From a virus, in the IMG/VR virus record IMGVR_UViG_3300006071_000029, positions 1 to 39,830 of that record: a stretch of 39,830 nucleotides of DNA; one strand, given 5' to 3'. Each line of letters starts with the position of its first letter. Position 1 is the stretch's first letter. The position numbers were made by a program, and so were the translations under genes. Under the pieces are notes generated by a model. That model searched no databases and was not told where the DNA came from. It worked only from the letters and a program-made list of their open reading frames with translations. Positions 3,448 to 35,711 of this stretch are shown here, piece by piece.

Positions 3448-3857
3448 GCTGGCTATACGAAGGTCAAGAATTCTTCAAGATTCCTGACAAGGCGTATGGT
3501 TTCGTCTATATCATTCACAATCTTGTCTCCGGCAAACGCTATATCGGCAGAAAGTTTTTCACCAAAGCTGGGTATAAGACGGTCGCAGGGAAACGGAAAA
3601 AGATCCGCCTAGAAAGCGACTGGAGAGACTACTATGGCTCCTCTCCTGCTCTCGCTAGGGCTATTGAGGCTGAGGGCAGGGAGAACTTCCAGCGGGAGAT
3701 TGTCCGGATCTGTTACAACCGATCCGAGTGCTCGTACTACGAATCCAAGCTGATTTTTGAGAACGACGCCATCCTGTCCGACGCATTCTACAACGATTGG
3801 ATCTCGTGCAAAATCTCTTCGAGGCATGTCAACGCGATCAAAAAAAATCCAAAATAG
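3444..3857 (+). CDS. GIY-YIG-type nuclease-like protein
   Basis: 137 residues. Near the N-terminus it reads VYIIHNLVSGKRYIGRKFF, which fits the GIY-YIG pattern (first motif VYI, second YIG followed by an Arg/Lys). A conserved-looking DWRDYYGSS follows, then a Glu in YESKLIF that could be the metal-binding Glu. No NUMOD repeats are seen, unlike the homing endonucleases elsewhere in this window. It may therefore be a stand-alone phage nuclease rather than a mobile gene. It starts by ATGA overlap with the zinc-ribbon gene. Confidence 0.7.
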   Translation: MSWLYEGQEFFKIPDKAYGFVYIIHNLVSGKRYIGRKFFTKAGYKTVAGKRKKIRLESDWRDYYGSSPALARAIEAEGRENFQREIVRICYNRSECSYYESKLIFENDAILSDAFYNDWISCKISSRHVNAIKKNPK

Positions 3858-3859
3858 TG

Positions 3860-3888
3860 CTTTACCTTTTTTCAAATTTAGGTTAGAA
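3860..3888 (+). promoter_or_regulatory. Early promoter (sigma-70 type)
   Basis: -35 TTTACC, a 17-bp spacer, -10 TAGAAT. It belongs to a family repeated many times in the window, in which the spacer (TTTTTTCAAATTTAGGT) and the bases after the -10 (GAATTATAG) are also conserved. It lies just before the gene at 3918. Confidence 0.85.
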
Positions 3889-3917
3889 TGAATTATAGTG
3901 ATTGGAAGGAACTGATT

Positions 3918-4412
3918 ATGAAGCTCGTGATTGACACCCAGATCGCTGAAAACTATGCCGCCCACAACGGCTTCACTGGCGAACATCGCTGGAAGTTCAA
4001 GGGTGGCAACACCTACGTGGTGGATAACATCACTCCCGCCCAGAAGGCTCGCATCGAAGCCGAGGGTACTCCTACCCTCGATGCCCTGATTAATGAGGAT
4101 GGCGGCTCGTATCGCGAGTACATCATCTCGCATCGTATCGTGGAAGACACTGCGGAAGAAGGTGAACCCTGGGAAACTCCTTTCCGTCTCTCCTACATCG
4201 ATGGTAAGTGGGTTGTTGCCCGCACCATCTACAACAAGGGCGAGTATGGTGGCTACATGCGCCCTGAGATCGCCACCAAGACGGAGACCTATGTAATGGG
4301 TCCTGCAGGTGAACGCCTCGATTATGAGGCTTCCTACGTTCTCGTTAACGGTCGCACTGCTCGCGACCAGCAGGAGCTCCAGTGTGAGCTTGATATGATG
4401 GAGGATGCATAA
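3918..4412 (+). CDS. Hypothetical early protein
   Basis: 164 residues starting MKLVIDTQIAENYAAHNGF. I chose the ATG at 3918 over the in-frame ATG at 3888 because the latter overlaps the early promoter -10 region. Codon use is regular and GC-rich at third positions. No known family is recognised. It is the first gene after an early promoter and is followed by TAATG overlap with the next gene. Confidence 0.75.
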   Translation: MKLVIDTQIAENYAAHNGFTGEHRWKFKGGNTYVVDNITPAQKARIEAEGTPTLDALINEDGGSYREYIISHRIVEDTAEEGEPWETPFRLSYIDGKWVVARTIYNKGEYGGYMRPEIATKTETYVMGPAGERLDYEASYVLVNGRTARDQQELQCELDMMEDA

Positions 4413-8068: not shown

Positions 8069-8144
8069 GGGGGCATAGTCCAAAGGCAGAGACAAGGCAC
8101 TTAAAATGCCTCCAGTGTGGGTTCGAGTCCCACTGCCCCTACCA
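8069..8144 (+). tRNA. tRNA-Leu (TAA), short variable loop
   Basis: 76 nt. Acceptor GGGGGCA/TGCCCCT, anticodon stem AGGCA/TGCCT with loop CTTAAAA, T-loop TTCGAGT, encoded CCA. Bacterial tRNA-Leu normally has a long variable arm; here it is only 5 nt (CCAGT), so the leucine assignment rests on the anticodon. Confidence 0.82.
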
Positions 8145-8176
8145 AAAATAAAATGCATTTAGAGGCAAAATAGTTC

Positions 8177-17261: not shown

Positions 17262-18065
17262 ATGAATCAAAACTTAATTTTCGATACAAATCCTGAAGAT
17301 TATACGCCTACTCGCAAAGAAAGAAAAATGTCGAGAAAAGCCCAACAAAGGGCAAGGGCAAATAATGTAGTTCAATTTGACCGTGGTCGCCAACAACAAA
17401 GAGGTCTAGAACTAGAATCAATTAAACCAAAAACTGCCAATCAAAGAAAAACATTTAAGTTGTATGGAGAGAATAAAAATCTCCTGCTTCATGGAGTTCC
17501 TGGAAGTGGTAAGACCTTTATCAGTCTTTACCTCGCTCTGGATGAAATATTAAATCAAAATTCCGAAACATTAAATAAAGTCGTGATCATTAGAAGTGCC
17601 CAATCTTCTAAAGGAATTGGATTCCTACCAGGAACAGCCAAGCAGAAGATGGAAGTCTACGAAACACCCTACTCGACAATCTGCTCAAAGCTCTTTGATC
17701 GAGGCGATGCTTATCAATGCCTGAAAAACAAAGGCATTATCGAGTTCGAGTCTACATCGTTTCTCCGCGGCACAACGATTGACGATTCTATCATCATCGT
17801 AGATGAGGTCCAGAATCTTCTACATTCCGAATGGCTAACAGTTCTAACTCGCGTTGGAGAAAATTCCAGGCTTATTTTATGTGGAGACAGAAGGCAAGAC
17901 GATCTAACATCAAAACGATACAACGAGGAATCTGGAATAGAAAGCCTAATGAAGGTCTGTTCCAAAATATCTTCAATGTCAACAATTCAATTTGAGGTCG
18001 ATGATATTGTCAGAAGTGGTTTTGCCAAAGAAGTCATTATGGCAATGATAGAATGTGGAATGTGA
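17262..18065 (+). CDS. phoH: PhoH-family ATPase
   Basis: 267 residues. Walker A GVPGSGKTF (about residue 78), the family segment GIGFLPGTAKQKMEVYETPY, Walker B IIVDEVQNL, and ILCGDRRQDDL later are all as in PhoH/RecD-like ATPases. PhoH-like genes are common in marine and T4-like phages, with RNA-related roles proposed. The 3' part (from about 17838) has a diverged second copy at 19011-19234. A GIY-YIG homing gene sits directly downstream. Confidence 0.93.
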   Translation: MNQNLIFDTNPEDYTPTRKERKMSRKAQQRARANNVVQFDRGRQQQRGLELESIKPKTANQRKTFKLYGENKNLLLHGVPGSGKTFISLYLALDEILNQNSETLNKVVIIRSAQSSKGIGFLPGTAKQKMEVYETPYSTICSKLFDRGDAYQCLKNKGIIEFESTSFLRGTTIDDSIIIVDEVQNLLHSEWLTVLTRVGENSRLILCGDRRQDDLTSKRYNEESGIESLMKVCSKISSMSTIQFEVDDIVRSGFAKEVIMAMIECGM

Positions 18066-18094
18066 CATAACACTTCTCTTGAAAAGGTAAGTTT

Positions 18095-18131
18095 TATAAA
18101 TAGTGCATAGGAGAGATTTTATGCACTATTT
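18095..18131 (+). promoter_or_regulatory. Late promoter plus start-codon-hiding hairpin of GIY-YIG gene
   Basis: TATAAATA at 18095-18102. A perfect 12-bp inverted repeat (18098-18109 with 18120-18131) has the Shine-Dalgarno GGAG in its 10-nt loop and the ATG (18121) in its 3' arm. Transcripts starting at the late promoter would lack most of the 5' arm. Confidence 0.75.
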
Positions 18132-18816
18132 TTTTATATACAAAACAACAAATACTATAAACGGCAAATATTACATAGGCAAACACGAGACTGACAACAT
18201 GGATGACGGATATCTTGGTTCGGGCATACAGTTGAATAGAGCCGTAAAAAAATATGGCAAAAAACAATTTGTGAGAGAAATATTATATTATTGTAATAAC
18301 AGCGAAGAGTTGTCTTCACTCGAATCAAAAATCGTTGATGAAGAGATTGTTCTTGATCCTCTGTCTTATAATATTGCACTCGGAGGCAAAGGAGGATGCA
18401 TTGTTCTAAAAGAACATCATCCACTTAGAGATGCAGTTCTAGATAAAATGAGAAAAACTGTTAGATCGGAAGAACACAGAAATAAACTATCAGAACAAAC
18501 AAAAAAATTACACGAAACAAAACGTGTAGGAATGTACGGCAAAAAACAAACACAAAAACAAAAAGACACGGTTTCCGAAATGATGCGCGGAAAGAAAAAA
18601 ACAACAGAAACCGTAGAAAAAATGAAAATGTCAATAAGCAAAACATTCGCAGATCCAAATTATGTGCATCCAAATAGAGGCAGACAGAGAGAAGATGCGA
18701 AGCAATTGGTCAAAAAAATACATTCAGAATCTCACGTTTGTCCTCACTGCGGAACTAATATGATAGGACCTAACTATTTTCGTTATCACGGCGATAAATG
18801 TAAAAAAATGGCTTGA
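18121..18816 (+). CDS. GIY-YIG homing endonuclease A (SegE-like)
   Basis: 231 residues. The GIY-YIG core is at the N-terminus: FIYKTTNTINGKYYIGKHETDNMDDGYLGSG, with later AVKKYGKKQFVREIL and the Glu in SLESKIVDEE. Basic NUMOD3-like repeats follow (RSEEHRNKLSEQTKK), and a C-terminal zinc knuckle CPHCG...YFRYHGDKC. It resembles T4 SegE-type free-standing homing endonucleases. It lies between phoH and the scrambled exo/phoH fragments. Confidence 0.93.
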   Translation: MHYFFIYKTTNTINGKYYIGKHETDNMDDGYLGSGIQLNRAVKKYGKKQFVREILYYCNNSEELSSLESKIVDEEIVLDPLSYNIALGGKGGCIVLKEHHPLRDAVLDKMRKTVRSEEHRNKLSEQTKKLHETKRVGMYGKKQTQKQKDTVSEMMRGKKKTTETVEKMKMSISKTFADPNYVHPNRGRQREDAKQLVKKIHSESHVCPHCGTNMIGPNYFRYHGDKCKKMA

Positions 18817-18840
18817 CAATATTAAGGGGAGTGTTATACT
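18813..18840 (+). promoter_or_regulatory. Host sigma-70 promoter
   Basis: TTGACA, 16 bp, TATACT, overlapping the stop of the GIY-YIG gene. It would drive the truncated exonuclease fragment. The bases right after it (GGTGTAGCTCAATG) look like a tRNA start, so the promoter may once have served a tRNA. Confidence 0.75.
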
Positions 18841-18869
18841 CCAGGTGTAGCTCAATGATATGGAATAAT

Positions 18870-19022
18870 ATGTTTAACCTTGACCTGATTGAATTCGCTC
18901 CCCTTAACCGAATCGACGGTGCTGACCGACTGTATGAGACCCCTGGTGGTTCTTATCCTTCGGTCACCACTGTCCTTGATAAGACCAAAACCTTTCTTAT
19001 CAAGAACTCAAAACAGTACTGA
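18870..19022 (+). pseudogene. 5' fragment of a second exonuclease gene
   Basis: The frame starts MFNLDLIEFAPLNRIDGADRLYETPGGSYPSVTTVLDKTK in DNA terms (given here as two parts: MFNLDLIEF and PSVTTVLDKTK). It aligns with the start of the intact exonuclease at 19271 (MFELNLIEF, PSVTNVLSKTK). After about 40 residues it breaks into unrelated sequence where the phoH fragment begins. Confidence 0.8.
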
Positions 19023-19234
19023 CTCGCGTTGGCGATAACTCAAGAATCGTGATTTGTGGAGACATAAATCAGGACGATTTGACGAGCACTAGATATAACG
19101 AGGAATCGGGACTGTCTTCTATTATGAAAGTTCTTGAAAGAATCCCTTCGATGGCTAAAGTTGACTTTGAGGTTCAGGACATTGTTCGTTCTGGATTCGT
19201 CAAAGAATTTATTATTGCGGAGTTGCAACTATAG
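19011..19234 (+). pseudogene. 3' fragment of a second phoH gene
   Basis: From 19011 the DNA matches phoH from about 17838 (ACTCGCGTTGG is shared exactly). In translation it gives ICGDINQDDLTSTRYNEESG against LCGDRRQDDLTSKRYNEESG, then both reach DIVRSGF near the end. The copy is diverged, so it is more likely acquired from a related phage than a recent duplication. Confidence 0.85.
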
Positions 19235-19235
19235 C

Positions 19236-19264
19236 TTTACTTTTTATCCAAACTACGTTAGAAT
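19236..19264 (+). promoter_or_regulatory. Early promoter before the exonuclease gene
   Basis: TTTACT, 17 bp, TAGAAT. The exonuclease ATG (19271) is 6 bp after the -10, so the transcript would be leaderless or nearly so. Confidence 0.75.
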
Positions 19265-19270
19265 GATTTT

Positions 19271-19930
19271 ATGTTTGAATTGAATCTGATTGAATTTGAA
19301 GAAATTACTGTCCAAGCTACGACCGAGGGGAGAAAATATACAACTCCGGAAGGAAATGTATACCCCTCGGTCACTAACGTTCTAAGCAAGACCAAGGACA
19401 TGACTGGCTTGATGGAATGGCGAAAGGCTGTCGGAGACGAAGCTGCCAATCGTGAGATGAATCGCGCAGCCAGTCGAGGCAACGGTCTCCACCTTCTATG
19501 CGAACGATTCATTCAGAATGAAGAGATCGATCTTCGTCACGAACTGCCTGTGCCAGTCCAGCTGTTCACTCAGCTTCGCCCAATCCTAAAGCGATTTGTC
19601 AATAACATTCGAGGGATCGAGTCGCCTCTCTACTCGGATTTTCTAAAGGTCGCTGGTCGTGTTGACTTGATTGCCGACTTTGATGGCGTTCGTGCTATCG
19701 TTGACTACAAGTCAAGCAACAACCCCAAACAAAAAGATTGGATTGAAGATTATTTCATCCAGACATCGATGTATTCCGTCATGTTTGAGGAGCGAACCAA
19801 GCTCCCAGTCCCAAGGCTCGCCATCCTGATAGCCAACGAGACAGGCGGAAAGCCATCAGTCTTCGTTGAGAAGCGTGACAATTTTATCAACAAAGCGATC
19901 GATCGGATTCATGAATATAGCAGATTGTAG
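19271..19930 (+). CDS. PD-(D/E)XK exonuclease (MGME1/Cas4-like)
   Basis: 219 residues. The nuclease core is visible as GRVDLIADFDGVRAIVDYKSS: Asp in the first strand and Asp-Tyr-Lys of the (D/E)XK motif. It is preceded by a helical region with GNGLHLLCERF and followed by YFIQTSMYSVMFEE (the QxxxY-type motif of RecB-like nucleases). This fits phage exonucleases related to mitochondrial MGME1. Its likely job is processing of DNA ends in replication or recombination. A 5' fragment of a second copy lies upstream. Confidence 0.88.
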   Translation: MFELNLIEFEEITVQATTEGRKYTTPEGNVYPSVTNVLSKTKDMTGLMEWRKAVGDEAANREMNRAASRGNGLHLLCERFIQNEEIDLRHELPVPVQLFTQLRPILKRFVNNIRGIESPLYSDFLKVAGRVDLIADFDGVRAIVDYKSSNNPKQKDWIEDYFIQTSMYSVMFEERTKLPVPRLAILIANETGGKPSVFVEKRDNFINKAIDRIHEYSRL

Positions 19931-26175: not shown

Positions 26176-26651
26176 TGAAGAAGATTGATCATGTTTTTCT
26201 CGATCTAGATGGGGTTGTGTTCGACTTCCATAGCGCAGTCGGCGATCAGCTCCACGATCGAGAAAAATGGTGGAACGAAGGATTCCCAAATTTTATCGAG
26301 GCTGGTGGCTTCGCTGATCTGCCTCTGCTGCCCGATGCCGAAGAGCTGATGAATTTTCTTAACGAAAACGTATGGGTCACAATCCTATCTTCAGCTGGCG
26401 GGACTCCTAGGTTTGACGAGATCGTTGATCAGAAACTTGAAGCTCTGCACAGGAACGGAATCGAATATCCAGCGATCATCGTCCCTTCCAAGGGAGTCAA
26501 GAAAGATTTTGCGGGCGAGGGTCGCCTCCTGATTGACGACCATCCTGAGAATTGCCAAAACTTCATCGAGGCTGGTGGTGAGGCTATCGTCCACATCGAC
26601 GCTGCAACCACGATAGCTCACATCAAAAAACATTACGAATTTTCAAATTAG
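26175..26651 (+). CDS. HAD-family phosphatase
   Basis: 158 residues. Motif I is FLDLDGVVFDF (nucleophile and acid/base Asp), motif II ILSSAGG, Lys in PSKGVKKDF, motif III LLIDDHPENC. The cap region is short. It resembles 5'(3')-nucleotidase-type HAD enzymes. By context it could be the heptose-bisphosphate phosphatase step (GmhB role), but GmhB normally has a different motif I (DRDGV), so the substrate is uncertain. Confidence 0.82.
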   Translation: MKKIDHVFLDLDGVVFDFHSAVGDQLHDREKWWNEGFPNFIEAGGFADLPLLPDAEELMNFLNENVWVTILSSAGGTPRFDEIVDQKLEALHRNGIEYPAIIVPSKGVKKDFAGEGRLLIDDHPENCQNFIEAGGEAIVHIDAATTIAHIKKHYEFSN

Positions 26652-26654
26652 TGC

Positions 26655-26683
26655 TTTACCTTTTTTCAAATCTAGGTTAGAAT
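26655..26683 (+). promoter_or_regulatory. Early promoter
   Basis: TTTACC, 17-bp conserved spacer, TAGAAT followed by GAATTATAAGG. Serves the genes from 26716. Confidence 0.87.
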
Positions 26684-26715
26684 GAATTATAAGGTTGATT
26701 GAAAGGAAGTTTGAA

Positions 26716-30093: not shown

Positions 30094-30109
30094 TTTTTCA
30101 AAAAAGTGC

Positions 30110-30138
30110 TTTTCTTTTTTTCAAATTTAGGTTAGAAT
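30110..30138 (+). promoter_or_regulatory. Early promoter
   Basis: TTTTCT, 17 bp, TAGAAT followed by GAATTATAG. Serves the gene at 30167. Confidence 0.85.
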
Positions 30139-30166
30139 GAATTATAGCTTGAAAGGAAACATTGGA

Positions 30167-30377: not shown

Positions 30378-30578
30378 ATGACCTATGAAGAATTTGACAA
30401 CATGTATGACGCCTCCTATGATCTCCAGGATGAGCATATGGAGTATATCATGGAAAACTGCCACGGTGAGCGTGCGATCTGCAATGGCGACAGTCTGATT
30501 GAGGCTCAGGAAGATGGCTACCTTTATGAGGATTTCCGCGACCACTATATTGAAAAGTGGGTCATGGTGAACGCATAA
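30378..30578 (+). CDS. Small acidic early protein
   Basis: 66 residues (MTYEEFDNMYDASYDLQDE start), very acidic. Next to the preceding gene with 1 bp spacing. Acidic small early proteins often bind host enzymes; no evidence beyond charge. Confidence 0.72.
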   Translation: MTYEEFDNMYDASYDLQDEHMEYIMENCHGERAICNGDSLIEAQEDGYLYEDFRDHYIEKWVMVNA

Positions 30579-30583
30579 AGTGC

Positions 30584-30612
30584 TTTCCTTATTTTCAAAT
30601 TTAGGTTAGAAT
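30584..30612 (+). promoter_or_regulatory. Early promoter
   Basis: TTTCCT, 17 bp, TAGAAT followed by GAATTATTGG. Serves the gene at 30639. Confidence 0.86.
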
Positions 30613-30638
30613 GAATTATTGGATTGAAAGGATTTGTT

Positions 30639-31205
30639 ATGCTTCGCAATATTCATGAATTGAGCAACCAAACTTTCTCTGACGTCCAGAGCGATTATTT
30701 TGTTGCAAGAAAGATTTTGGGCTATATGACCAGCGGTCAGATTTTGGTTGAAGACCCGATGACTCGAGAACTCCTCACCAGCGGTCAAAACCAATATGGC
30801 TTTGAAAAGCTCTTTGAGCTTCTGGCTCGTCTCGGTATGTTTCATGCAGGCAATATGGGCGAGATTATCTATTGCCTGGAAAACAAAGATTCTTTGGCCA
30901 AGCGGAATCATTCTCCGTGTGACACGGTCAAAGGTGCTGAAGTCAAGACTTCCAAGAGCATTCGGAAGCACACGAATCCAAAAACTGGAAAGTTTTCATA
31001 TTATTTTCGAATTTCCGGTCTGGAGAAGAAAGATCGATCGAAGGTCGCTGTCGGAATCAACTATGGCGGTATGCGCCAAACTGCGATTCTCGATCTGACG
31101 GGTCACACCGGAAAGCACCTGAATATTCCCTGCAACGCACATGGCGTGATCAAGAAGAACACCAAGTGGGGTCAGTTTTTTGAAATGAAATCTATCGCAG
31201 CATAA
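30639..31205 (+). CDS. Hypothetical early protein
   Basis: 188 residues (MLRNIHELSNQTFSDVQSDYF start). The C-terminal half has a basic, beta-rich segment (SKSIRKHTNPKTGKFSYYFRI). No known family. GAAAGGA lies before the ATG. Confidence 0.75.
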   Translation: MLRNIHELSNQTFSDVQSDYFVARKILGYMTSGQILVEDPMTRELLTSGQNQYGFEKLFELLARLGMFHAGNMGEIIYCLENKDSLAKRNHSPCDTVKGAEVKTSKSIRKHTNPKTGKFSYYFRISGLEKKDRSKVAVGINYGGMRQTAILDLTGHTGKHLNIPCNAHGVIKKNTKWGQFFEMKSIAA

Positions 31206-31213
31206 AATAATGC

Positions 31214-31242
31214 TTTACCTTTTTTCAAATTTAGGTTAGAAT
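31214..31242 (+). promoter_or_regulatory. Early promoter
   Basis: TTTACC, 17 bp, TAGAAT followed by GAATTATAG. Serves the XRE regulator. Confidence 0.87.
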
Positions 31243-31267
31243 GAATTATAGCTTGAAAGGAACTGAT

Positions 31268-31597: not shown

Positions 31598-31703
31598 CAG
31601 ACGACCGTCGCTTGCGCCCAACGTATTATAAAACTTAGGTTTCATAATGACCGCCACCTAAGCGACTGATCCAGAGTCGTTTTCCTCAAGCGTATGATTT
31701 TGC
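31598..31703 (+). other. Intergenic stretch with two dyads
   Basis: No gene. CTTAGG/CCTAAG (around 31635-31665) and CGACT/AGTCG with a 7-nt spacer (around 31665-31681) could be operators for the XRE protein upstream or weak terminators. Confidence 0.35.
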
Positions 31704-31732
31704 TTTCTTTATTTTCAAATTTAGGTTAGAAT
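31704..31732 (+). promoter_or_regulatory. Early promoter
   Basis: TTTCTT, 17 bp, TAGAAT followed by GAATAATAGGAAAGGG. Serves the DUF932 gene. Confidence 0.85.
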
Positions 31733-31783
31733 GAATAATAGGAAAGGGAATGGTTCCCTCTCCTCTCTTAAAGGAATTATATT

Positions 31784-32960: not shown

Positions 32961-32970
32961 CTCCCGACTG

Positions 32971-33004
32971 TGAGGGAATCTTTTTTGGGTTCCCTCACTT
33001 TTTT
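32971..33004 (+). terminator. Intrinsic terminator
   Basis: Stem TGAGGGAA/TTCCCTCA (32971-32978, 32990-32997) followed by six T. Directly followed by the next early promoter. Confidence 0.9.
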
Positions 33005-33006
33005 GC

Positions 33007-33035
33007 TTTCTTTATTTTCAAATCTAGGTTAGAAT
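33007..33035 (+). promoter_or_regulatory. Early promoter
   Basis: TTTCTT, 17 bp, TAGAAT followed by GAATAATAGGAAAGGG. Serves 33060 and 33250. Confidence 0.86.
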
Positions 33036-33059
33036 GAATAATAGGAAAGGGAGTTTGCT

Positions 33060-33260
33060 ATGAAGTATGTCTTGATTATCGGTGGTATCCTTCTTATGGC
33101 TGGCGCTGCTGGGTCTTCGGACTTCTATGACCAGTGCAAGGCTGCGGCTGACTGTGTTGCGGGCGATCCCCCGAGCACTCTCCGAATCATTCTCCAGAGC
33201 CTCGCTGGTCTGGCGATGCTGTTTATCGGTGTCGCTAAGTCTCTTCAAGATGACGCTTGA
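33060..33260 (+). CDS. Small membrane protein
   Basis: 66 residues with two hydrophobic segments, MKYVLIIGGILLMAGAAGSS at the N-terminus (possible signal peptide) and a second helix (IILQSLAGLAMLFIGVAKS). A Cys pair in between (DQCKAAADC) could be exposed to the periplasm. Function unknown. Confidence 0.72.
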   Translation: MKYVLIIGGILLMAGAAGSSDFYDQCKAAADCVAGDPPSTLRIILQSLAGLAMLFIGVAKSLQDDA

Positions 33261-33573
33261 TTCATTCTTTGAACCAGAAATGGTGAACGAAGTCCAGACG
33301 CTGGATGAGAAGATCAAACAGCGTAGGACGCAAATGCTGATACATTCCTATCGGTATTATGTCCTAGACGACCCTGTGATCACTGACGAAAAGTGGCAAC
33401 AGTGGGCTGATGAGTTGGTCGAGCTTCAAAAGCGAAAGCTGAAGATTGGCTTCTACGATAAAGAATTCTCTGACTGGACTGGTGCTACTGGAATGCATCT
33501 TCCATTCGATAAGTGGATTAGAGACAAGGTAAAATACCTAAATAAAATATCAGTTGTTGACAATCAACAATAA
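33250..33573 (+). CDS. Protein resembling the Ia domain of NAD-dependent DNA ligase
   Basis: 107 residues. IHSYRYYVLDDPVITDEKWQQWADELVELQKRK resembles the N-terminal Ia (NMN-binding) domain of LigA, where Y.YYVLD.P.I.D.EYD is conserved. The adenylation domain is absent, so it cannot be a ligase alone. Its 3' end overlaps the start of the tmRNA gene. Overlaps the previous gene by 11 bp. Confidence 0.6.
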   Translation: MTLDSFFEPEMVNEVQTLDEKIKQRRTQMLIHSYRYYVLDDPVITDEKWQQWADELVELQKRKLKIGFYDKEFSDWTGATGMHLPFDKWIRDKVKYLNKISVVDNQQ

Positions 33574-33906
33574 AGGCGGAAAGACTGGGGTTCGACTCCC
33601 CACACCTCCACCATCATTCATTACCTTTGTGGTGCCTGCTGGGCAGCAATGGCTTTCTCGGTTACTCGTAAGTGATCATAACGGTAACTGTGGATAGTGA
33701 AAAGGTCTCCTAGCGCAAGGAGATACCCAACGTGATGGATGATGATGGGGGTGAACTGGGATCGATTTTCGTGTAATAGGGCGATCGAGACTGATTCGGT
33801 GGTCGAGCGACCAAAAACAATAAATGCTAACGATAACGAAAGCATTGCTCTAGCTGCATAAGCTAGACTAGGGTTCGGTGGGTACCTCGTAACAGAAACC
33901 CACCAC
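33554..33906 (+). ncRNA. ssrA: Circularly permuted (two-piece) tmRNA
   Basis: The gene is in the permuted order typical of alphaproteobacteria. First, the acceptor piece: T-arm TGGGG TTCGACT CCCCA, 3' acceptor strand CACCTCC, discriminator A and CCA (to 33613). Then about 133 nt of intervening sequence. Then the coding piece from 33747: 5' acceptor strand GGGGGTG, which pairs fully with CACCTCC and includes the G3-T70 pair recognised by alanyl-tRNA synthetase. The tag frame at 33826-33861 reads ANDNESIALAA then TAA. A stem (CTAGCT/AGCTAG) around the stop and a pseudoknot-like GGTGGGT/ACCCACC follow, as expected. The tmRNA rescues stalled ribosomes and tags proteins for degradation. The 5' end of the acceptor piece and the 3' end of the coding piece are estimates. 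Confidence 0.88.
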
Positions 33907-33910
33907 TTAT

Positions 33911-33937
33911 TCCCCTGTCGTCTAACGGTAGGACATC
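33911..33937 (+). pseudogene. 5' half of a Gln/Glu-type tRNA, truncated before a GIY-YIG gene
   Basis: TCCCCTG, TC, complete D-arm GTCTAACGGTAGGAC, A, then T-rich sequence with the late promoter of the GIY-YIG gene. The 3' half is missing. The break is at the same position of the tRNA as in the fragment at 11455. Confidence 0.75.
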
Positions 33938-33947
33938 TAAATATTTT

Positions 33948-33981
33948 GATAAATAAAACATAAGGATAAGATATGTTTTAT
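33948..33981 (+). promoter_or_regulatory. Late promoter plus start-codon-hiding hairpin of GIY-YIG gene C
   Basis: GATAAATA at 33948-33955. A perfect 10-bp inverted repeat (33953-33962 with 33972-33981) holds the Shine-Dalgarno AGGA in a 9-nt loop and the ATG (33973) in the 3' arm. Confidence 0.72.
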
Positions 33982-34608
33982 ACAATATATTCGATAACAA
34001 ATTTATCAGATGGCAAAATATATATCGGAAAGCATAAAACCAATAATTTAGATGATGGTTATATGGGTTCTGGTACACTGATTCGTAGAGCCATTTCTAA
34101 ACATGGTATCGAAAACTTTAAAAAAGAAATTTTATTCGTTTTCGATAACAAAAACGAAATGGACTTAAAAGAAAAAGAATTAGTCAATGAAAATTTTGTT
34201 TTGTCTACGTTAACCTACAACTTATCTTTAGGTGGAAAAGGTGGGTGGAATCCTAGTAAATCTAAAGTCGCATTTCTTGGAAAAAAGCATTCCGAAGAAA
34301 GTAGAAAACGAATAGGTGAAGCTAGTAGGAATAGAATTCATTCACCAGAATCCAAAAAGAAAATGAGTGATTCTCGTAGGGGTGTCTCAAAACCCAATAC
34401 ATCTATTTCTCTTAAAGGAAAAATGAAAACAGATGAACATAAAAAGAAAATAAGTGAATCGCTGAAAAATAGAGATCCTAAAAAAGTTCCTAAGGGTTAT
34501 AAAAGAAAATCTAAACAGATATGGATCAATAACGGAGAATATTCTACCAGAATTAACTCAGAGTTGTTGATTCCAAACGGATTCATCAAAGGAAGATTAA
34601 AGAAATAG
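33973..34608 (+). CDS. GIY-YIG homing endonuclease C (SegE-like)
   Basis: 211 residues. Core: YTIYSITNLSDGKIYIGKHKTNNLDDGYMGSG, then AISKHGIENFKKEILF and a Glu in DLKEKELV. NUMOD3 repeats follow (HSEESRKRIGEASRN, TDEHKKKISESL). Closely similar in plan to the GIY-YIG genes at 18121 and 38205. It ends 1 bp before tRNA-Gln(CTG), and its upstream side carries half a tRNA. Confidence 0.93.
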   Translation: MFYTIYSITNLSDGKIYIGKHKTNNLDDGYMGSGTLIRRAISKHGIENFKKEILFVFDNKNEMDLKEKELVNENFVLSTLTYNLSLGGKGGWNPSKSKVAFLGKKHSEESRKRIGEASRNRIHSPESKKKMSDSRRGVSKPNTSISLKGKMKTDEHKKKISESLKNRDPKKVPKGYKRKSKQIWINNGEYSTRINSELLIPNGFIKGRLKK

Positions 34609-34609
34609 T

Positions 34610-34685
34610 TGCTCTCTGGTGCAATTGGCAGCACGTCTGACTCTGACTCAGAAGGTTCCAGGTTCGACCCCTGGGAGAGCATCCA
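34610..34685 (+). tRNA. tRNA-Gln (CTG)
   Basis: Acceptor TGCTCTC/GAGAGCA, anticodon loop CTCTGAC, T-stem CCAGG/CCTGG with loop TTCGACC, discriminator T, encoded CCA. Begins just after the GIY-YIG stop. Confidence 0.93.
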
Positions 34686-34693
34686 ATTTTTTA

Positions 34694-34723
34694 GTTGACA
34701 TCACAGTCAACACCGTGTATAAT
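34694..34723 (+). promoter_or_regulatory. Consensus sigma-70 promoter with a dyad over the -35
   Basis: TTGACA, 17 bp, TATAAT: a perfect match to the bacterial consensus. GTTGAC/GTCAAC (34694-34699, 34706-34711) forms an inverted repeat over the -35, a possible repressor site. It precedes tRNA-Gln(TTG). Confidence 0.85.
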
Positions 34724-34740
34724 ACGAAAACAATTTACAT

Positions 34741-34814
34741 TGCCCCTTCCTCTAATGGTAAGAGAGCGGACTTTGAATCCGTCAATCTTGGTTCGAATCC
34801 AGTCGGGGGATCCA
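34741..34814 (+). tRNA. tRNA-Gln (TTG), copy 1
   Basis: Anticodon stem GCGGA/TCCGT with loop CTTTGAA, T-loop TTCGAAT, encoded CCA. The acceptor TGCCCCT/CGGGGGA has two mismatches, so the gene may be weakened; a second copy is at 38471. Confidence 0.8.
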
Positions 34815-35138
34815 CGTTTAACCGTTCTCAAAGCACGGTAGACCGTTTTCCATAACCCCTCTAGATGACCTAAATACTATTGTTAATACTGGAGGAAACT
34901 GCCTCCATTGACTCTTACACCAGCTTCAAGTCCTTATGTGGCTAAGAAAGCGATAAAGATTTCGGTCTTTATCACCGACGAAAACACTAATGATTTTGCA
35001 TTCTCAGTAAGAGGAGAATGGATGTAGAAGATACCTCTATAATTAATCTCGTTTCTGTATCTTCTCATAGCGTTATTGCCCCTGAATTGTTTTATACAGG
35101 CAATAATTAGCCAAGTCATTAAATTGATGAGGATACAA
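34815..35138 (+). other. Long untranslated stretch with hairpins
   Basis: No convincing gene (only a 39-codon TTG frame ending at about 35028). Hairpins: GGAGG/CCTCC at about 34890-34907, an 8-bp GATAAAGA/TCTTTATC with loop TTTCGG at about 34951-34972, and GAAGATAC/GTATCTTC further on. A CTAAATA element is near 34869. It may be the structured leader of the lysin gene. Confidence 0.4.
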
Positions 35139-35711
35139 ATGAGACTCTTCGAACATAGAAAAGATTTTCCTTTTATAAGATGGGCTGAGGGATTCTTGCT
35201 CGGCGCTATCGCGATAATTGTAATTATAAGTCTGATTCCACACAATCAGCCAAAACCAGTAATCATTGAGAAACCTATCATTAAGGTTATTGAGAAACCA
35301 ACTATCGTCAAAGTCCCAGTCCGATTGACTGCCCATGACCAGCAACAAATCCAGTGCCTCGCCGAAAACACATATTTCGAGGCTGGTAACCAATCAACAA
35401 AAGGCAAAATTGCCGTCAACAATGTTGTTATGAATAGAGTAAAGGATCCTTCCCACCGATTCGGTAAGACTGCTTGCGCCGTGGTTGCTCAAAAGACCAA
35501 AGGCACCTGCCAGTTCTCGTGGAAGTGTATGAGATTGAAAATTCATAGCCATGAACAATTCGCTGAAAGCAAGCGAGTTGCTGAACAAGTTTATCTTGGT
35601 AACGTCGGAGACGTTACAGGAGGCGCAAAATTTTATCACGCTAACTACGTAAATCCACACTGGAATTTGCATAGATTAATCCAGATCGGTGCACATATTT
35701 TTTACGCTTGA
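35139..35711 (+). CDS. Cell-wall hydrolase, SleB/CwlJ type (probable endolysin)
   Basis: 190 residues from the ATG at 35139 (GAGGA 5-10 bp upstream). An N-terminal hydrophobic helix (GFLLGAIAIIVIISLI) is followed by a Pro/Lys-rich linker (KPVIIEKPIIKVIEKP). The Hydrolase_2 domain has CLAENTYFEAGNQSTKGKIAV with the catalytic Glu, later VVAQKTKGTCQFSW and GAKFYHANYVNPHW. The enzyme cleaves peptidoglycan. The anchor suggests membrane tethering or a signal-anchor-release route at lysis. Confidence 0.88.
   Translation: MRLFEHRKDFPFIRWAEGFLLGAIAIIVIISLIPHNQPKPVIIEKPIIKVIEKPTIVKVPVRLTAHDQQQIQCLAENTYFEAGNQSTKGKIAVNNVVMNRVKDPSHRFGKTACAVVAQKTKGTCQFSWKCMRLKIHSHEQFAESKRVAEQVYLGNVGDVTGGAKFYHANYVNPHWNLHRLIQIGAHIFYA

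Follow-up and report, generated by a model that had tools for sequence, protein, structure and literature searches.

The DNA analysed here, the window, is a 39,830-base stretch of an IMG/VR virus record that carries 28 tRNA genes and a manA RNA motif. On its plus strand, at 33549-33906, lies a circularly permuted (two-piece) tmRNA gene of the alpha type, belonging to a T4-like phage. The features of the locus are listed below with the evidence for each.

33252..33573 (+): gene for a stand-alone NAD+-binding domain resembling the one in NAD-dependent DNA ligase (PF22745), with a start chosen by comparison with the relative L124; at its 3' end the gene overlaps the 5' hairpin of the tmRNA
33549..33613 (+): acceptor (tRNA-like 3') piece with CCA end; Rfam, ARAGORN, and a conserved block found in 53 distinct sequences
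33553..33569 (+): 5' hairpin within the acceptor piece, stem UUGUUG/CAACAA; across 54 sequences it is 95.7% paired, with one-sided G-U changes only
33577..33582 (+): P2 strand CGGAAA, partner UUUUCG at 33766-33771 in the coding piece; 99.4% paired, with block replacement in L124
33586..33602 (+): T arm, stem UGGGG/CCCCA, loop UUCGACU; 100% paired, with compensatory change in 2 of 5 pairs
33603..33613 (+): acceptor 3' strand CACCUCC (33603-33609), then A and CCA (33611-33613); 7/7 with 33747-33753
33614..33746 (+): 133-nt intervening segment that processing is predicted to remove; 33614-33624 and 33732-33742 form its closing helix
33747..~33906 (+): coding (tRNA-like 5' and mRNA-like) piece; ARAGORN, Rfam, and relatives
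33747-33753 (+): GGGGGTG, 5' acceptor strand including G3-U70; 7/7 with CACCTCC
33800..33813 (+): hairpin UGGUC/GACCA just before the tag, seen in the sequence; in the alignment of relatives the outer pairs are kept and the inner ones mostly gapped or unpaired
33826..33861 (+): tag frame GCT..GCA TAA, ANDNESIALAA*; ARAGORN, Rfam, and an identical tag in L124
33877..33904 (+): 3' hairpin GGUGGGU/ACCCACC, loop AACAGAA; compensatory changes in 7/7 pairs, yet 74.9% of alignment cells paired
34883-35076 (+): conserved structured RNA between the tmRNA and the hydrolase gene (ATG 35139); covariation

Identity and anatomy of the tmRNA gene

The Rfam model tmRNA_permuted (RF04321) recognized the gene with 103.9 bits (cut-off 47, E 2.3e-19). 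As a bacterial yardstick, the same Rfam model reached a maximum of 47.9 bits in 185 genomes of one class, with one true permuted tmRNA, at 141.4 bits, set apart. The alpha_tmRNA model (RF01849), the covariance search proposed as a check on the original prediction, gave 80.6 bits, also above its curated cut-off (50). ARAGORN called a tmRNA* with the tag ANDNESIALAA, confirming the predicted tag and its ALAA end, and the whole gene folded with a z of -5.8 relative to shuffled sequences. The Rfam scores and the ARAGORN call bear out the original prediction of a permuted tmRNA with the acceptor part first, in the alphaproteobacterial order, and its coordinates (33554-33906) were right to within a few bases. 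A second RF04321 match in the window (8117-8175, 25.8 bits) overlaps a tRNA-Leu gene and was dismissed as noise.

The acceptor half precedes the coding half, with the intervening segment between them. The strands GGGGGTG and CACCTCC, expected to pair fully, form 7/7 pairs across 133 nt, including G3-U70, and the CCA end is encoded. The tag frame opens with the resume codon GCU at 33826, runs through eleven sense codons (33826-33858) to a UAA stop (33859-33861), and ends in hydrophobic residues, AA. The tag had been regarded as shortened, but the commonest tag length is 10 residues (PMC11915505), so that an 11-residue tag is ordinary. The terminal hairpin carries the AACAGAA motif of alpha-type tmRNA, and GGGU (33871-33874) could possibly form a pseudoknot with ACCU (33884-33887).

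Relatives and covariation

A T-arm/acceptor pattern matched 120 viral stretches, and ARAGORN found 51 permuted tmRNAs in 122 fetched viral loci. A narrower subfamily pattern matched at least 119 viral stretches. The fetched loci together with the window gave a subfamily of 53 distinct members, to which L124 was added for covariation (54 sequences). The acceptor stem and G3-U70 were invariant in 54/54 sequences, and compensatory changes occurred in the T stem, P2, and the intervening-segment helix. All 53 members had an intact tag frame. Twelve different tags were found among them, keeping the ordinary ANDN start and LAA end and varying in the middle, and phages of nearly identical RNA core differed in tag. 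L124 has a gp32 75% identical to that of the window and the same tag, with a differing tmRNA core. A blastn search against phage isolates revealed no near relative.

The intervening segment ranges from 3 to 157 nt in relatives, and its sequence changes completely. Among 25 distinct segments, the mean pairing energy was -16.7 kcal/mol for a segment's own arms versus -6.6 kcal/mol for foreign arms; the window's own arms gave -13.2 kcal/mol. A closing helix that is kept while the sequence turns over fits a segment that is removed in processing and is free to change except for the helix. Segments of only 3-5 nt were found in 12 viral contigs (L016, L118, L183, L198, L207, L212, L227, L245, L247, L256, L260, and L261), near-identical relatives of which have segments of 45-157 nt. 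We rejected the view that such short segments are a phage peculiarity, as the bacterial permuted tmRNA L354 has one of 4 nt. Processing must therefore tolerate a nearly closed loop.

Genomic surroundings

The locus is conserved: across 52 loci, in which fragments limit the counts, a cell-wall hydrolase gene lay downstream in 49 and, beyond it, gp32 in 29, and 20 had a DUF932 gene upstream. The gp32 of the window (PF08804) supports the T4-like context that had been proposed. Its best isolate match, about 50% identical, is in Caulobacter phage Cr30, in which a permuted tmRNA was looked for and was absent.

Across 84,980 bacterial and archaeal species, a pattern of 19 fixed bases from the acceptor piece matched only three times, about the chance level, and none of the matches was a tmRNA. 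We therefore rejected a host origin. Because this pattern is absent from the bacterial and archaeal tmRNAs searched, the gene belongs to a viral lineage and is no recent copy from a host, as judged by an exact pattern that would miss diverged host relatives. SmpB was not found in 7 phage records, which are incomplete, whereas the control search was positive in 10 genomes; host SmpB is thus presumably used.

Directly after the tmRNA lies the 5' fragment of a tRNA-Gln-like gene (33912-33938), followed by a GIY-YIG/NUMOD3 homing endonuclease ORF (33973-34608, +) and then by tRNA-Gln genes. In L124 this whole insertion is missing. The tRNA-Gln(ttg) gene at 34741-34814 (+) scores low (34.4 bits). 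Its 3' acceptor strand CGGGGGA is a better partner for the orphan TCCCCTG at 33912 than for the gene's own 5' strand, an indication that tRNA halves have been rearranged. A perfect TTGACA-17-TATAAT promoter is located at 34695-34723. Elsewhere in the window, a putative PhoH-like gene (17262-19930, +) is apparently split by a putative GIY-YIG-like endonuclease ORF (18103-18816). This ORF is flanked on each side by partial duplicates of the following gene, as would be expected if an endonuclease had inserted recently. A general role of the GIY-YIG endonuclease in spreading the tmRNA was rejected, since matches to the window's GIY-YIG endonucleases occurred near the tmRNA in 0/52 relatives and HNH in 1/52.

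Expression of the tmRNA

In relatives, 12 of 15 distinct upstream regions carry a TATAWA-type -10 box at one fixed distance, mostly with TTGACW 17 nt before it, and the start predicted from this pair is the first base of the acceptor piece. A TATAAATA box upstream of the relatives' tmRNA was considered as a T4 late promoter and rejected, the conserved TTGACW 17 nt before it fitting host sigma-70 better. Neither a T4-late-like nor a sigma-70-like promoter is intact in the window lineage, because the ligase-like gene overlaps the tmRNA 5' end. The same holds for L111, L239, and L242, in which the upstream PF22745 gene reaches or enters the tmRNA hairpin, with loss of the promoter. Transcription in the window would therefore have to come from upstream or from weak sites. 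In that upstream region, a weak promoter-like site (33015-33042) comes after a strong terminator-like hairpin (32970-32998).

Intergenic repeats of approximately 50-70 bp, 88-98% identical, precede genes at 31698-31749 and 33001-33052; 3851-3921, 26640-26698, 30100-30158, 30577-30632, and 31204-31262. They are probably shared early/middle promoter modules. In mycobacteriophage Wildcat, the tmRNA is the most highly expressed lytic gene (PMC7474061).

A structured RNA before the hydrolase gene

Homologs of the RNA at 34883-35076 were found in L016 (1029-1207), L124 (2699-2883), L126 (6659-6825), and L296 (2049-2249), and its pattern matched at least 119 viral stretches. Its five helices were 98.9% paired over 27 distinct sequences, and 10 pairs had changed on both sides, a number that 0/500 shuffles reached. 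A long-range pseudoknot-like helix, CUCUUAC/GUAAGAG, has become CCAUUAC/GUAAUGG in L334. Apart from one chance match, Rfam gave none at E<=5, and blastn gave none among isolate phages; a covariance model of the RNA detects it in more distant phages. In 15/15 cases inspected, a cell-wall hydrolase gene followed the RNA, usually with a TATAAATA-like late-promoter box just upstream. The RNA looks like the leader of a late lysis-type gene and is a candidate for a new cis-regulatory element.

Discussion

We consider it highly probable that the window encodes a functional permuted tmRNA that is transcribed, cut in two, charged by the host, and used by the T4-like phage for ribosome rescue and tagging. 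A single transcript would contain the acceptor half ahead of the tag-coding half. By analogy with established tmRNA biology, RNase P and tRNA 3' processing would excise the 133-nt intervening hairpin, and the acceptor stem and P2 would keep the two resulting RNAs joined. Host alanyl-tRNA synthetase would charge the CCA end through G3-U70, and host SmpB would deliver the RNA to ribosomes that have stalled on mRNAs that are cut or lack a stop codon. The nascent chain would receive A followed by ANDNESIALAA (tagging product AANDNESIALAA), and its LAA end would direct it to ClpXP/ClpAP-type proteases for degradation. The likely benefit to the phage is that ribosomes and amino acids would be kept available while mRNA is destroyed during infection.

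The gene might instead be a functionless remnant or passenger of a host tmRNA, acquired when a prophage excised imprecisely or as a piece of an integration site. Such an origin has precedents, since tmRNA genes are common integration sites and prophage fragments of them are known (PMC9004378). But the gene is complete, its pairing and tag frame are conserved in 53 phage sequences at one fixed phage locus, and its acceptor piece occurs in no bacterial tmRNA searched, so we regard a remnant as very improbable. We give equally little credence to a decoy that binds SmpB and blocks host trans-translation, the role suggested for the tRNA-like, tag-less RNA of mycobacteriophage DS6A. The lack of SmpB in the phage records searched would suit a decoy, and PMC4131195, citing Mao et al. 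2009, describes DS6A-like tRNA-like domains as inhibitors of tmRNA. However, an RNA of the DS6A type has a tRNA-like domain without a tag frame, whereas in the window the frame is present, and relatives keep it together with the resume and stop codons and the LAA end, none of which a decoy would need.

Ribosome rescue may also be secondary to a tag chosen by the phage, so that host proteins would be broken down for amino acids or the phage's own proteins left intact. Selective degradation has been proposed (PMC9004378), and the variety of tags on a near-identical RNA core agrees with it; the ordinary start and end retained by the subfamily tags argue against it, and we think this unlikely to be the main role. 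Also tentative, and rather improbable, is the idea that the tmRNA of this clade is long-established in viruses, with tag and intervening segment swapped as modules on a near-fixed core, so that phages could adjust the tag to the host or to the stage of infection without regard to the host tmRNA. Rescue of ribosomes together with tagging remains the reading that we prefer.

The window gene shares with the permuted tmRNA of Alphaproteobacteria (RF01849; in general RF04321) the gene order, the G3-U70 acceptor stem, P2, the tag part, and the AACAGAA hairpin. It differs in being phage-borne, in its 133-nt intervening segment, and in its T loop, which has the canonical TTCGACT where the alpha type has GGCGGTA; L124 keeps GGCAGTA. 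Ruegeria phage RpAliso also has a permuted tmRNA (OR257569 2895-3116, corresponding to L174:1172-1393; 129.5 bits), but with a 30-nt intervening segment, and only 34 bases align by blastn. This tmRNA is without annotation in the public record OR257569. The one-piece tmRNAs of mycobacteriophages Bxz1 and Wildcat and of Bacillus phage G have the standard gene order. They resemble the window gene in being phage-borne with a tag frame (PMC4131195), but come from different phage groups and hosts.

Phage two-piece tmRNAs are already known. They were published in 2022 for the T4-like myophage Melnitz, together with 53 predictions from 18,146 phage genomes, 50 being marine or aquatic (PMC9004378), and the current database, from the work that also made RF04321, holds 79 phage tmRNAs (PMC11915505). 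With our 51 ARAGORN genes, these reports do not uphold the earlier suggestion that such a gene is unusual in a T4-like phage; it is common among the T4-like phages of this aquatic group. Like the window, Methylophilales phage Melnitz and Pelagibacter phage Mosig carry an alphaproteobacterial-type permuted tmRNA and not one of the host-lineage type (PMC9004378). Melnitz, too, is T4-like and aquatic. Its tmRNA, unlike that of the window, is linked to a predicted glutamine riboswitch and lies directly upstream of a transcription coactivator gene; Rfam revealed no glutamine riboswitch near the window tmRNA (E<=1 over 33440-34900, E<=5 over 34815-35180).

These results extend the known phage two-piece tmRNAs by a well-supported clade, whose 53 distinct sequences lie almost all at the same locus, and correct the view that permuted tmRNAs are rare in T4-like phages. 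They indicate that phage two-piece tmRNAs are viral genes under structural selection and not stray host copies, and phage control of ribosome rescue becomes a testable question.
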